IMG/VR virus record: IMGVR_UViG_3300031898_000271
Span: 1-28,234 of that record
Reading direction: 5' to 3' (one strand)
Length of the DNA stretch: 28,234 nt
Origin: a virus
The position numbers and the translations under genes were made by a program. Position 1 is the first letter of the stretch. Each line of letters opens with the position of its first letter. The notes under the pieces were generated by a model that worked only from the letters and a program-made list of their open reading frames with translations, ran no database searches and was not told where the DNA came from. Positions 4,313 through 23,991 of the stretch are shown in pieces.

Positions 4313-5161
4313 TCACATAGGGGTTGCTTGAGTAAGCATTCGTAAACGAGCTTGCATCTGGAAACCGAAGCTTCTAGCCACTTCTTCGACACTTCTGCCT
4401 TCAGGATTCATGTCTATGGTCCCGACGTGGAGAAGCGGGCCCTGCACATTGATTCCTCCGGCGCCTCTGCCGATGACCTCACCTCTATGGCCAACCATTA
4501 AGCCGGTCCTAGTGATCTGAGCGAATTCTCCTGGCGCTGTTTGGCCGGAGGGAACTCGTATGCTCTGAGTTGCGCTCCAAAGAGCTATTCCTCCAGCTAG
4601 AGCTGAGATCCCTAAGATCGCCCAGCCAGCAGGACCAAGCGAGGCCCAGAATCCTCGAGCTGCAACTCCAGCTGCTTGAAGAGAAACTGTTAGCGAAATC
4701 AATTGTGCGATCATTCCAGGAATCTGAGCCATCAGCGAAATCATTGTGGCTTGCTGAGCCTGTTGAGCTGCCTTCAGCCTTTCCAAGGCTTCCCGCGTCT
4801 TCTCGCTAGCTGGGCCCCATTTCTCCAAGGCTTCTTGGTAGTCGCGTTGCGCTTCTGTGACCCGGATGGCCGCGATGTTATAGTGCGTGATCATGCTGGT
4901 CACATGGCTCGCTATGGCTCCAACCCTTGAGAGCGCATTCGCCATCAAGATTGCGTCTGAATATTGAACCCTAGTGGATGTTGAGATTAACCGTAGGACG
5001 CGGTTCTGCTCTCTAATAGTCTCACTGGCTGCGGCAAGCCTTCCCCTTGATTCATCTGAGATCTCGCCGAGCTGCTTCATCTCCGTGTAAACTCGACGTA
5101 TCTCAGCTGAAGCTTCATCACGTCCGCGAATAACTATGTCGATACTGTTTACTTCAGCCAT
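4313..5161 (-). CDS. Short tail tape-measure protein
   Basis: A 282-residue protein. Residues 1-130 are almost wholly helical with heptad-like spacing, the opening 'IDIVIRGRDEASAEIRRV' is typical of tape-measure N-termini, and a long hydrophobic Ala/Leu/Ile/Gly segment (about 140-200) resembles the membrane-interacting part of these proteins. The C-terminal 'GQTAPGEFAQITRTGLMVGHRGEVIGR' region is the Gly-rich end often found in phage tape measures. The ATG is preceded by GGTGA at good spacing and follows the frameshift extension stop by 3 bp. In known siphoviruses, tail length scales at about 0.15 nm per residue, so a tail of roughly 40 nm or less is expected, short for this group. Confidence 0.8.
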   Translation of the reverse strand: MAEVNSIDIVIRGRDEASAEIRRVYTEMKQLGEISDESRGRLAAASETIREQNRVLRLISTSTRVQYSDAILMANALSRVGAIASHVTSMITHYNIAAIRVTEAQRDYQEALEKWGPASEKTREALERLKAAQQAQQATMISLMAQIPGMIAQLISLTVSLQAAGVAARGFWASLGPAGWAILGISALAGGIALWSATQSIRVPSGQTAPGEFAQITRTGLMVGHRGEVIGRGAGGINVQGPLLHVGTIDMNPEGRSVEEVARSFGFQMQARLRMLTQATPM

Positions 5162-5164
5162 CCA

Positions 5165-5877
5165 TTATTCACCAATCTTGCTGCGAGCTCTCTCTATGGC
5201 CCTTTGAAGCGCTGCCGCTGTCAGAAGATTAAATTCGTCAATGGGTAGATGTTTCAAATCTTCAAGTTTGTAGCCGGGGAAAATTTCTGGGATCAAGAGG
5301 ATGGCTTGGATTTCTGCGGCTCGGAGGAGCTCTCGGTCCCGGTCGCTCGGAATAAAAAAGGGGTGTTCTCCACGATGTAGAAGTAGATTTGACGAATTTC
5401 CTCAAGAGTGAATTGCTTGATCTTTTCGAGTGTAACTGATTCATCGCCTTTCCTCCACATTAGGAATAAGGCTTGCCGAATGTAGTCTTCCTCGCTTAAG
5501 TCCTTGAGCGCCATAAACTCATCAACTCGCATACGACCGTACCGTATCTTGCAGTCGAGTGGAGGAACGTAGACCTCGAAGATTTGATTGATGTCTGAGA
5601 GGATTTGATCTATTGTCTTCAGAACGGCTTTCTTCCTATCTTCATCGTACCGCTCCTTAACTCCCACCAAAATTGAGAGTTCTTTCGGAGTTAGTCCCTC
5701 CGCCTCCTCCTTCATGCCTCGCTTTGTATGTGCAGCCCAGTGATTTGCCCAAGCCTTCATGCCTGAAGGGTCGCCTGGAAATATTGATGAGCAACCCGGC
5801 CACTTGCAGTGAACCTGCCCTTGCTCATCGATTGTGAACGGAGCTTCTTTCTCTTCCTCCTTCTTCACTTCACTCAA
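5165..5877 (-). CDS. Tail-assembly chaperone, -1 frameshift product (gpGT-like)
   Basis: A predicted 237-residue fusion: residues 1-175 are read in the zero frame through the T TTT TTA heptamer, then 62 residues in the -1 frame ending at TAA 5165-5167, three bases before the tape-measure ATG. The extension begins IPSDRDRELLRAAEIQA and is well composed, with amphipathic helices. It has no ATG, GTG or TTG between the preceding in-frame stop and its own middle, so independent initiation is unlikely. This matches the G/GT organisation conserved in long-tailed phages, where the minor fused product links the tape measure and tube protein. The sequence and synteny are direct; the occurrence of frameshifting in this archaeal-type system is inferred. 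Confidence 0.75.
5293..5877 (-). CDS. Tail-assembly chaperone, zero-frame product (gpG-like), with N-terminal C2H2 finger
   Basis: A 194-residue protein. Near the N-terminus is a C2H2-type metal site (C24, C29, H46, H50), then a helical body (about 62-172) typical of tail-assembly chaperones: 'EEDYIRQALFLMWRKG' and 'FTLEEIRQIYFYIVENTPF'. It sits immediately upstream of the tape-measure gene and overlaps the gp10-like gene by ATGA, which is the syntenic position of lambda G or HK97 gp13. Residues 176-194, after the slippery site, are Ser/Pro/Lys-rich and of low complexity, as expected for a terminated zero-frame tail. Known chaperones of this type bind the tape measure and recruit tail-tube subunits, and then leave the virion. 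The zinc finger is unusual for the family. Confidence 0.8.
   Translation of the reverse strand: MSEVKKEEEKEAPFTIDEQGQVHCKWPGCSSIFPGDPSGMKAWANHWAAHTKRGMKEEAEGLTPKELSILVGVKERYDEDRKKAVLKTIDQILSDINQIFEVYVPPLDCKIRYGRMRVDEFMALKDLSEEDYIRQALFLMWRKGDESVTLEKIKQFTLEEIRQIYFYIVENTPFLFRATGTESSSEPQKSKPSS
5353..5359 (-). promoter_or_regulatory. Programmed -1 ribosomal frameshift slippery heptamer
   Basis: Read on the minus strand, the zero-frame codons are CCT TTT TTA TTC, giving T TTT TTA in the canonical X XXY YYZ register. It lies at codons 173-175 of the chaperone gene, and the -1 frame opens into the 62-codon extension. Tandem slippage of both tRNAs is fully re-paired for TTT and mostly for TTA. The downstream 40 nt are GC-rich with short complementary segments, but I cannot establish a defined stimulatory stem by eye. 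Confidence 0.75.
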
Positions 5878-6308
5878 AACCTAGTTGCCTCCTTCATTTT
5901 CTCCATCAACGTAGTCAGCTCTTCCTTGAATGCGTCGGAGATGATCCAAAGCGCCTGTGTTCCAGGATGCAGCACTCTACGAGCGAAGACTATTTTCCCG
6001 TCTTTCTCGAAACGCAAGGCTTTACGAGTTACAGGTTCAACAATGTGGACGCCTGTTCCGAACTCTATGAACCGGGCGGCTCGATGAGTATTGCCGAACA
6101 TAACCTCCATAGGAGCCGAAGAAACATAGAATGAATCTAGGTAGGTTCCGGGATTCTTCAAGCGTTCAAAAGCCAGAGCCTTCGCTCTCTCAACCGTGTT
6201 CTGAGCGGTCTCCTCGAGTACGCCTTGAGCAATGCGCGGCACGTTTGAGAGAGCATTCTCAAATCGAAATGCAAGCGACACTAAACCTTCAATCTCAATT
6301 CTAAACAT
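5874..6308 (-). CDS. HK97 gp10-like tail completion/head-tail joining protein
   Basis: A 144-residue protein with the clear family signature in its second half: an RFIEFGTGVHIVEP segment, then KALRFEKDGKIVFARR and VLHPGTQA, which in HK97 gp10-type proteins form the conserved beta core. The N-terminal half has two amphipathic helices. Length matches the family (about 110-150). It overlaps the chaperone gene by ATGA. In known phages this protein caps the connector or tail tube during head-tail joining. Here it lies after rather than before the tail-tube-like gene, a modest rearrangement relative to HK97. Confidence 0.85.
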   Translation of the reverse strand: MFRIEIEGLVSLAFRFENALSNVPRIAQGVLEETAQNTVERAKALAFERLKNPGTYLDSFYVSSAPMEVMFGNTHRAARFIEFGTGVHIVEPVTRKALRFEKDGKIVFARRVLHPGTQALWIISDAFKEELTTLMEKMKEATRF

Positions 6309-20437: not shown

Positions 20438-21056
20438 AAGCCTTAACCTTCTCCGGGTTCTCCGAATATTCGGTTTCGTTGAATCTGGCTGCTTCGTCAT
20501 ATGTTATCTTCCATCTTCCAGTGTAGGCGACCGTGAGAGGAATTATTGGAGCCGGCCCAGGGTGAACTGTTGTCTCGAGAAGATGCCATTGACCTTGAAT
20601 CTCTACGATCGACCAAGCGTGGAGACCCAACATCCTACGGGTCCCTGATTCAAGCATCGCTCCAAGACAAACGTACGAGTTTTGGCCGAGAATTCTAAGA
20701 AGGCTTGTGCAGAGGCATGAAGTGTCGATACATATGCCATATCCAGCTCGAATCGTCTGTCCAGGGGTCAACCAACCATATCTGGCGTACTCATCAAAGA
20801 GGTAGAGGCCATCCCACCACTTGAAGAGCTTGACATGCCGTTCAACAGCGGGCTTCCCGCTGAAGTTGAGGGGATATTTGATCTGTTTGCAGACGTAGTC
20901 GAAGGCTGCTCGAACTGGGTCTTGACGCCAAGCCTTGAGGGCTGTAGCGATCCTGACAAGTTCAGGATTATCGATTTGGATGAAGTCTGTCACATAAGAC
21001 TCTTCGCCTAGAAGAGCCATATTGACTGTTGGGATCTTCCTGCTCATCAATTTCAA
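20406..21056 (-). CDS. Transglutaminase-like cysteine hydrolase
   Basis: A 216-residue protein. The fold pattern is clear: the early helix 'PVRAAFDYVCKQIKYPL', then the catalytic motif AGYGICIDTSCLCTSLL with C109, the HAWSIVEIQGQW strand with H146, and LLETTVHPG with E161 in the Asp/Glu position. This is the Cys-His-Asp/Glu triad of the transglutaminase-like superfamily, which includes peptidases, amidases and cross-linking enzymes. No signal peptide is present. In a lytic or assembly module it might cut a host envelope protein during release or process or cross-link virion proteins. The start is uncertain (ATG at 21056, 21047 or 21020), with up to 89 bp overlapping the methyltransferase gene. 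Confidence 0.75.
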   Translation of the reverse strand: MKLMSRKIPTVNMALLGEESYVTDFIQIDNPELVRIATALKAWRQDPVRAAFDYVCKQIKYPLNFSGKPAVERHVKLFKWWDGLYLFDEYARYGWLTPGQTIRAGYGICIDTSCLCTSLLRILGQNSYVCLGAMLESGTRRMLGLHAWSIVEIQGQWHLLETTVHPGPAPIIPLTVAYTGRWKITYDEAARFNETEYSENPEKVKAYAKIFKPDLE

Positions 21057-21825
21057 CTCTCGTCATGATTCCAGCATACTTCTTGAAGTCTGTGACGCCG
21101 ATTAGTTTCGGCATGATGACGTAGGCAGAGTAAACAACAGATCCTGACTCTTTTGCCTTGAAGAAGATGGGGTGAGATTGAGCGTCATGGCGCATGCATA
21201 GGATGTCGATGAAGTTCTTCTGTATCTGGAAGAGGTATTCACCAAGCTTCCTAGTCACATGGTACTGGTCGTCTTTCGTGTATTTCGGGCCTAAATCTAC
21301 ATAGAAGTCTTGCAGATAGTATCTTCGTAGATCGGCGCTACTCCATGTTCGAAAGTTTAGGAGCATACCATCCGTGAGCGAGATCACAAGATTCTGCTTC
21401 TGCTGGTAGACATCGAAGAATTTTTGGATTTGAGGGGTTGGACAGCCGTATGCGTCGAAGTCTACGAATGTTATCCTCTGCTCTCCAATGTTGCGGAGGA
21501 TGTTCGGCAGCTGCTCAAGCACGTTCATGTTGTCGTCGTTGATTAGGACAGCTTTCCTCCTGAATCTCGCCATGTTCCTCTTCAAAGCCTTAAACAGATC
21601 TGGGTCCTTCTCAACACAGATGATCCGTTTACAAGTGGGCGCGTAGAGTTGGGCCAACAAGCCTTTTCCAGTGAAGAGGTCGAGAACGACCTCCTGAGGA
21701 AACATTCCGTAGACCTGCATTCGCAGGCTAGCTTTATCCGGGTCCAGCTCTCCGCCTTTCTTGATTCTGTAACGGGGAGGTTTGAAGAGCCGCTTGGGTA
21801 AGCTCCATCGGGTCTCCGGTTCCAA
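20968..21825 (-). CDS. Trm1-like SAM-dependent methyltransferase
   Basis: A 285-residue protein with a Rossmann methyltransferase core: motif I VVLDLFTGKGLLAQL (46-60), the acidic loop 'IICVEKDPDLFKALKRNM' (68-85), 'LINDDNMNVLE', and a catalytic-region FVDFDAYGCPTPQIQ (120-134). The FDAYGCP segment resembles the DPFGSP-type motif of Trm1, which dimethylates G26 of tRNA; it is not the DPPY/NPPY of N6/N4-adenine/cytosine DNA methylases. It is shorter than cellular archaeal Trm1 (about 380 residues) and lacks the C-terminal part. A nucleic-acid (tRNA or other RNA) target is inferred. Its location between a membrane protein and a hydrolase gives no further clue. Confidence 0.75.
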   Translation of the reverse strand: MEPETRWSLPKRLFKPPRYRIKKGGELDPDKASLRMQVYGMFPQEVVLDLFTGKGLLAQLYAPTCKRIICVEKDPDLFKALKRNMARFRRKAVLINDDNMNVLEQLPNILRNIGEQRITFVDFDAYGCPTPQIQKFFDVYQQKQNLVISLTDGMLLNFRTWSSADLRRYYLQDFYVDLGPKYTKDDQYHVTRKLGEYLFQIQKNFIDILCMRHDAQSHPIFFKAKESGSVVYSAYVIMPKLIGVTDFKKYAGIMTRVEIDEQEDPNSQYGSSRRRVLCDRLHPNR

Positions 21826-22890: not shown

Positions 22891-23415
22891 TCACGATATT
22901 TGCTTTACAGTGAAAGATCCGAAGCCTCTCTTCCTTTCCGCCCCCAAGCCTATCCTCTCTCCAGAAAAACTCAGAGCATCAAGAAATCTTTCTACTGAGA
23001 TAACTGAAGTGGGAATCTTGAATGAAGCTTCAACCCAAGACCCTGGCGGGCAAGCTTCATGCCTCTTCAGACCCGCGCCCCTCGATCGAGCGATCACTGG
23101 CAACGTGACTTGGAGAATCGATTTTCCATGAGGAATATGCATCTCAGCGTCTTTGCAGAATACGTAGTTTTCCAGAGTTTCGGGGAGATCAACTATTCGA
23201 GCCATCTCTCTGATGAGCCCTCTGAACTGCCCTCGAAGAACCACTATTCTGTTATCATCGGTCCTGTGGAGAACCTCGTCGAACTCATCGGAAGGCTTGC
23301 TGTCAAGCCAATACGGCGCTGAGGCTATGTGCCCTCCGAGAAGAGGCTTTGTAAAGGTCAGTTTAGCACTGACTTCCTTGTAGCTTCCATATTTTATCCT
23401 GGTGGCCGATTTCAT
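22891..23415 (-). CDS. Stand-alone RAMP-like protein
   Basis: 174 residues from the ATG at 23415; in-frame ATGs at 23439 and 23502 are alternatives. It opens with AKLTFTKPLLGG, then HRTDDNRIVVLRGQFRGLIRE, a strand rich in Val/Ile ('SILQVTLPVIARSRG'), GSWVEASFKIPTSVIS, and ends in GERIGLGAERKRGFGSFTV. The TFtxPLLGg opening occurs in a family of phage-encoded proteins I recognise by pattern. The Gly-rich RIGLGAERKRGFGSF end is very like the G-loop of RAMP/Cas5-Cas6-Cas7-type RNA-binding proteins. There is no neighbouring cas gene or CRISPR. Function unknown; RNA binding or interference with host CRISPR effectors are testable ideas. Confidence 0.65.
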   Translation of the reverse strand: MKSATRIKYGSYKEVSAKLTFTKPLLGGHIASAPYWLDSKPSDEFDEVLHRTDDNRIVVLRGQFRGLIREMARIVDLPETLENYVFCKDAEMHIPHGKSILQVTLPVIARSRGAGLKRHEACPPGSWVEASFKIPTSVISVERFLDALSFSGERIGLGAERKRGFGSFTVKQIS

Positions 23416-23521
23416 CCTCTTCACTTTGACATTATTCATTAGGTAGTGTATGTGAATGAACAGACATGACCTGACTCGAGAAGAGAGAACTCGAGCGGAC
23501 ACGAAGCGAGTGACTGTGCAG

Positions 23522-23770
23522 TTATGCCTTGATAATCTTCCAGAACACCAGAATTATCCTTCGATCGGTGCTTTTCCACTCTTTCGTGACCAGTTTTCTG
23601 CTCTTGAGTAGGCTCATTATGCGCTCAAGCTGGAACCAAGACGTTTGCACTCGATATTTCTCTTCAAGGATCGCTGCGATCTCAGCAGTCCTCATAGGAC
23701 CGTATTCTCGTAAGATGTTGAGCACAAGTATTGAGAGATCTGTCAGATGTCTCCATTGACGCATACTCAT
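23522..23770 (-). CDS. Winged-helix transcription regulator
   Basis: An 82-residue protein with a PadR/MarR-like winged helix: helix 'LTDLSILVLNILREYGP', helix-turn-helix 'RTAEIAAILEEKYRVQTSWF' and 'QLERIMSLLKSRKLV', then a wing strand pair 'KEWKSTDRRIILVFWKI'. It overlaps the upstream 74-residue gene by ATGA and lies just downstream of the AT-rich repeat region, so it is a good candidate for an early/late switch or repressor that acts on that region. DNA-binding fold is fairly sure; the target is inferred. Confidence 0.75.
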   Translation of the reverse strand: MSMRQWRHLTDLSILVLNILREYGPMRTAEIAAILEEKYRVQTSWFQLERIMSLLKSRKLVTKEWKSTDRRIILVFWKIIKA

Positions 23771-23991
23771 CTGGATTTCATCTGGCTAGGGTTGAGAGTG
23801 AATACGCGAGTATATCTGGATGTGCGGAGAACCTCGCCTTGTACTACATCGAGGAGATTCGATTCAGTCGTTGAGACGACTTCAGCTCTCTCCCGGTCTA
23901 TGAAGGCTGAATCGAAGACATGTTTAAGCTCGTTGAGCTTCAGGTCTCGAATATGTCTTCGACCTCTGAAGGATTCACGCCTATTCTTCAC
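23767..23991 (-). CDS. Small basic protein coupled to the winged-helix gene
   Basis: A 74-residue frame from GTG at 23991, preceded by GGGGAGGA at 9-nt spacing, and ending in an ATGA overlap with the regulator. The sequence is basic at the N-terminus (RRESFRGRRHIRD), with a helix 'LKLNELKHVFDSAFIDRERA' and a beta-rich end ('VVQGEVLRTSRYTRVFTL'). I do not recognise it. The strong ribosome-binding site and coupling support a real gene, perhaps a partner of the regulator. It is the first gene on the minus strand after the non-coding region. Confidence 0.6.
   Translation of the reverse strand: MKNRRESFRGRRHIRDLKLNELKHVFDSAFIDRERAEVVSTTESNLLDVVQGEVLRTSRYTRVFTLNPSQMKSR

Follow-up and report, generated by a model that had tools for sequence, protein, structure and literature searches.

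Frameshifting by −1 in the G/GT tail-assembly chaperone genes is conserved among double-stranded DNA phages (Xu, Hendrix and Duda 2004, as cited in PMC7911831). In archaeal viruses, the accounts given in PMC5009743 and PMC8211752 trace a −1 frameshift in the haloarchaeal siphoviruses HVTV-1, HCTV-1, HCTV-2 and HCTV-5 to reports from 2013 (Pietila 2013; Sencilo 2013); Hardycor1 has the site G_GGA_AAT (PMC7911831), and the HF1 group probably uses a +1 shift (PMC7230728). Earlier than these haloarchaeal reports, −1 frameshifting in archaeal translation was shown experimentally for the Sulfolobus gene fucA1 (PMC8211752). The accessible papers on viruses of Bathyarchaeia and on archaeal proviruses do not mention frameshifting. 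Here we analyse a 28 kb virus contig (IMG/VR record IMGVR_UViG_3300031898_000271, positions 1 to 28,234; hereafter the window), in which two overlapping frames lie immediately before the tape-measure gene. Comparison with related loci makes it very probable that the two frames make up one tail-assembly chaperone gene of the G/GT type, belonging to a tailed virus of Bathyarchaeia and expressed by means of a −1 slip.

The locus resembles lambda G/GT in its position before the tape measure and in the short C-terminal domain that would be added to a minority product. It differs from lambda in its probable archaeal hosts, in a chaperone without detectable similarity to Pfam or PHROG chaperone families, and in its U-type slippery site; the site of lambda is G_GGA_AAG. 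The window shares the heptamer U_UUU_UUA with human immunodeficiency virus 1 (HIV-1) gag-pol, which has a eukaryotic host and a known downstream structure, but the genes are unrelated. With HVTV-1, HCTV-1, HCTV-2, HCTV-5 and Hardycor1, as far as the sources cited above describe them, it has in common a canonical-heptamer −1 frameshift, deduced from sequence, in a tail-chaperone gene carried by a tailed virus of archaea, whereas here every Y of the X_XXY_YYZ heptamer is U and the hosts would be Bathyarchaeia rather than haloarchaea. The Sulfolobus fucA1 α-L-fucosidase gene also shifts by −1 at a heptamer in archaeal translation, but it is a cellular gene with experimental proof, and most of its relatives are full length, not frameshifted (PMC8211752).

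A first, sequence-only reading of the window had proposed that a site of this kind would extend canonical-heptamer frameshifting to archaea; in this it was preceded by the haloarchaeal siphoviruses and by fucA1. What is new is the host lineage, the breadth, the restriction to U-type sites and a compound slippery sequence. Until now, frameshifting in archaeal viruses was known from a few haloarchaeal isolates, whose sites, where given, are of the A type. The chaperone family described here spans about 17 divergent viruses or proviruses of Bathyarchaeia and their relatives, all with U-type sites, and is documented by comparative statistics. It adds an unannotated structural protein for Bathyarchaeia viruses, and its natural site variants, together with one natural loss, are material for testing slippage by archaeal ribosomes.

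Two frames and a compound slippery sequence

The genes of interest lie on the minus strand of the window. The zero-frame open reading frame (ORF; 5877..5293) encodes a G-like chaperone product of 194 amino acids, with zero-frame relatives recognized by profile, and begins with a TTG that overlaps the stop of an upstream gp10-like gene. As first noted from the sequence, T TTT TTA (U_UUU_UUA) stands in the zero-frame register at 5359..5353, where it takes in the third base of the CCT codon 173 and the whole of codons 174 (TTT) and 175 (TTA). Overlapping this heptamer is another canonical one in frame, C CCT TTT (C_CCU_UUU; 5362..5356), which that description did not mention; the site is thus the compound CCC TTT TTT A (CCCTTTTTTA; 5362..5353), with CCCUUUUUUA as the candidate slip sequence. 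In-frame heptamers are scarce in the long ORFs of the window, at 5 per 7122 codon positions, and two of those five are at the chaperone site. A GGAG lies 5 bases upstream of the site; the spacing between the upstream element and the slip site in dnaX is longer than this, and we therefore claim no stimulator role for it.

The −1 frame opens behind a TGA at 5404..5402 and runs for 78 codons from stop to stop (5165..5401). Counted from the slip, the T-like extension (5165..5353) comprises 62 residues (IPSDRD...SKIGE) and ends in a TAA (5167..5165); 3 bases past that stop, at 5161, is the ATG of the tape measure, in agreement with the initial description. The same description had found no start codon in this frame before the middle of the extension: indeed there is no ATG, GTG or TTG before a TTG at 5296, although this codon, 20 codons into the extension, lies one third of the way along rather than in the middle. 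The predicted junction peptide, ENTPF[F/L]IPSDR (VENTPFLIPSDR or VENTPFFIPSDR), can arise only from a fusion of the two frames.

Structure prediction bears out the proposed contrast between a helical extension and the zero-frame tail: the extension is modelled as a three-helix domain with a mean predicted local distance difference test (pLDDT) score of 90, and the zero-frame residues past the slip (175–194) are predicted to be disordered (pLDDT < 50). Foldseek searches with the zero-frame model returned several tail assembly chaperones, a protein of Methanobacterium virus Drs3 and HK97 2ob9; because all E values exceed 0.01, these matches are suggestive only. The chaperone matched no known chaperone family in Pfam, PHROG or NCBIfam.

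If the gene works like those of lambda and other phages, most ribosomes would finish the zero frame and release a short chaperone that has a disordered tail. A minority would slip one base back on CCC-UUU-UUU-A, at C_CCU_UUU and/or U_UUU_UUA, the P- and A-site tRNAs re-pairing in the −1 frame, and would then read 62 further codons to give a longer chaperone with the three-helix domain at its C terminus. From the same comparisons we infer the chaperone function, in which the part common to both products would coat the tape measure; by analogy with lambda, the extension may bring tail-tube subunits to it.

Conservation of the register and selection on the −1 frame

A scan of viral contigs with the window chaperone alone gave zero matches, and relatives were reached through TerL: the window terminase matched 21 viral contigs, from which protein or tape-measure similarity identified three chaperone relatives. 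Locus L058 was found by a heptamer scan of terminase-related archaeal contigs and then confirmed by profile, and L103, L105 and L106 were added by later searches. Archaeal genomes were then searched with profile A4, built from only the zero-frame protein and blind to the slippery site; this brought in another 17 loci, numbered L108 to L124, of which L109 does not differ from L108 over the stretch concerned. Sixteen of these have the −1 extension and an in-frame canonical heptamer in the overlap. L118 (G497:C130) has lost the extension: its tape measure begins at the stop of the zero frame, and in place of a heptamer it has GGG TTT CTA.

The −1 frame relation is found in 23 of 23 loci. A canonical heptamer in the correct register is present in 22 of the 23 loci that keep both frames, and a wrong-register heptamer in one locus. 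After clustering at 60% identity, the correct-register heptamer is present in 17 of 18 clusters. Among heptamer-blind clusters, 15 of 16 are positive, with a joint chance of about 10^-20.6 at a background rate of 0.0018 heptamers per codon. Given the amino acids and codon usage, the probability of a heptamer at all 17 positive clusters is about 10^-23, which indicates synonymous-site constraint at the heptamer; both chance figures should be read as orders of magnitude only, because the clusters were taken as independent and the relatives are not fully so. The length of the extension from the slip is nearly constant (56–63 amino acids), and most relatives have no usable start codon before it.

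Every site in the chaperone family has Y = U, in the forms U_UUU_UUN, C_CCU_UUN, A_AAU_UUN and G_GGU_UUU; background heptamers comprise 43 of the U type and 35 of the A type. Equivalents of the compound site (GGGTTTTTTA/GGGTTTTTTC) occur at the same place in L105, L115/L116/L121 and L123/L124, as X_XXU_UUU_UUA or with a terminal UUC. A run of six Ts is present in the window and in many relatives, and seven loci (L027, L036, L058, L108, L114, L119 and L120) keep the frame relation with CCCTTTN or AAATTTN and no long homopolymer. Other chaperone families of the same virus group have A_AAA_AAN, C_CCA_AAA, C_CCU_UUN or U_UUU_UUA. One of them swaps A_AAA_AAA and U_UUU_UUA between L051 (position 1786) and L052 (263) or L062 (2244), with the −1 relation kept.

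Leave-one-out hidden Markov models (HMMs) of the extension ranked the true −1 ORF first in eight of eight records, including the window, where it came first of 853 ORFs (E = 0.0048); the other seven gave E values of 4e-6 to 1e-23. For close pairs, in the part of the extension past the zero-frame stop, synonymous divergence (dS) was 0.26–0.94 and non-synonymous divergence (dN) 0.009–0.11, giving a dN/dS of about 0.02–0.43 in the −1 frame, with changes concentrated at −1 third positions. Distant pairs from the other chaperone families of the group differ mostly at −1 third positions. Judged by these comparisons, the extension is under purifying selection in the −1 frame. Conservation of the heptamer and frame, synonymous-site constraint and protein-level selection, all put forward from the sequence as checks on the frameshift, are thus borne out in the relatives.

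Host assignment and competing explanations

The closest TerL relatives of the window virus in genomes (33–62% identity) are nearly all in Bathyarchaeia and related archaea. Genome G321 falls in the same class as Candidatus Bathyarchaeota archaeon A05DMB-2. On its chromosome-sized contig C1, U_UUU_UUA is present in two chaperone loci, one at 793 kb and the other at 1366 kb; between them, at 1003 kb, lies a gene for ribosomal protein L21e, a family that among 14 control genomes has matches only in archaea. With an archaeal ribosomal-protein gene thus enclosed by two chaperone copies on a single chromosome-sized contig, we take the hosts of the relatives to be Bathyarchaeia. The window encodes TerL, portal and major head proteins, that is, HK97-type head and packaging genes. 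An archaeal host, as suspected from the sequence, is supported for this Caudoviricetes virus, the host being assigned through its relatives. Tailed viruses and G/GT genes are also common in bacteria, and the TerL has distant matches in bacterial phages (26–30% identity). An ordinary bacterial-phage frameshift is nonetheless very improbable given the archaeal affiliation of the much closer TerL relatives and the two chaperone relatives on the archaeal chromosome-sized contig; moreover, the fused L058 chaperone found no match among 50,697 annotated phage records.

Three further explanations dispense with ribosomal slippage. Were the extension an independent small gene, started by coupling or internal initiation beside an incidental heptamer, it would need a start codon; the TTG at 5296 in the window and, in L036, an ATG that precedes the extension by 17 codons are candidates. 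In most relatives, however, the first ATG, GTG or TTG is deep inside the extension or absent, so that conserved N-terminal residues would be lost, and several −1 ORFs open just 3–5 codons ahead of the heptamer. Together with the conservation of the heptamers in register and at synonymous sites, this makes separate initiation highly unlikely. The six-T run in the window, shared with many relatives, could instead be taken for a site of transcriptional slippage that joins the frames, but the seven loci without a long homopolymer keep the same relation, and RNA polymerase slippage does not need the X_XXY_YYZ register seen in 22 of 23 loci against one, and we give this account as little credence as that of a separate start. 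Errors in homopolymers are frequent, the window comes from just one metagenomic record, and an indel introduced into the T run by sequencing or assembly might have split one ordinary gene; the same −1 relation recurs, however, in over 20 loci drawn from separate assemblies, whether or not the site is a T6 homopolymer, which already refutes this, and it is the least credible of the alternatives.

Programmed −1 frameshifting of a G/GT-type chaperone is, by contrast with these explanations, strongly supported by the comparative evidence, because the in-register heptamer is conserved, the extension is selected in the −1 frame and the relative that lacks the extension also lacks the heptamer. Several points weigh against it. 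L103, from a metagenome-assembled genome with the label Woesearchaeota, retains the two frames but has just U_UUU in place of a canonical heptamer, an exception to the otherwise consistent finding that relatives with both frames have a slippery site. The stimulatory RNA structure that the sequence-only reading had suggested seeking by RNA folding was not found downstream of the window site (z = −0.14), nor was any consistent downstream structure found in the relatives, in which z scatters from −2.2 to +0.9. The window extension is the most divergent of those compared and its leave-one-out score is modest (E = 0.0048), and the zero-frame model resembles known tail chaperones only weakly in fold searches, with every E above 0.01.

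Wyosine at position 37 of tRNA-Phe is held to prevent −1 slips (PMC7761594). The wyosine family PF08608 is present in nine of nine host genomes examined, and because U-type sites occur in hosts with this family, the idea is directly testable in archaea. It is conceivable, though doubtful, that frameshifting here runs only on sites with UUU re-pairing and depends on hypomodified tRNA-Phe or on another host or viral factor; if so, chaperone frameshifting would report the state of tRNA modification in these archaea.

Neighbouring genes and other observations

The tape-measure protein (4313..5161, minus strand), assigned from weak PHROG tape-measure matches (E 0.007), has merely 282 amino acids, which would predict a short tail if length is set as in lambda. 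Upstream of the chaperone, 5874..6308 (minus strand) encodes an HK97 gp10-like tail completion protein (phrog_5, E 3e-8). In the relatives G002 and G011, the gp10-like gene sits between chaperone and tape measure; at L027 and L036 it follows the chaperone, so that there the extension adjoins the gp10-like gene and not the tape measure.

At its N terminus the window chaperone carries some 60 additional residues that are missing from all aligned relatives (alignment A4). This part contains a putative C2H2 zinc-finger motif, C24-x4-C29 ... H46-x3-H50 (5728..5808, minus strand), unusual for a tail chaperone; a zinc-finger nuclear magnetic resonance structure was among the weak fold matches of the chaperone model.

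In Methanobacterium virus Drs3 (L125; MH674343), an unannotated frame at 23550-23810 lies +1 to Drs3_00030, before a tape-measure-like gene, and has a similar ending (ADLTPLQSYFISKGRLDLYNEMNKVK). The gap contains no −1 heptamer, and a +1 frameshift is perhaps used there.

Elsewhere in the window, the minus-strand gene at 20968-21825 encodes an S-adenosylmethionine (SAM) methyltransferase with weak matches to rRNA and tRNA methyltransferases (RrnaAD, TRM5/TYW2, TRM1 and Taw2). RNA of the host's translation apparatus could be its substrate; that it modifies tRNA-Phe would be a guess, the matches being weak and generic. At 22891-23502 (minus strand), a protein of 203 amino acids with a G-rich loop (GLGAERKRGFGSF) and a RAMP-superfamily match below the cut-off (E 0.0025) is possibly a virus-borne CRISPR RAMP protein.
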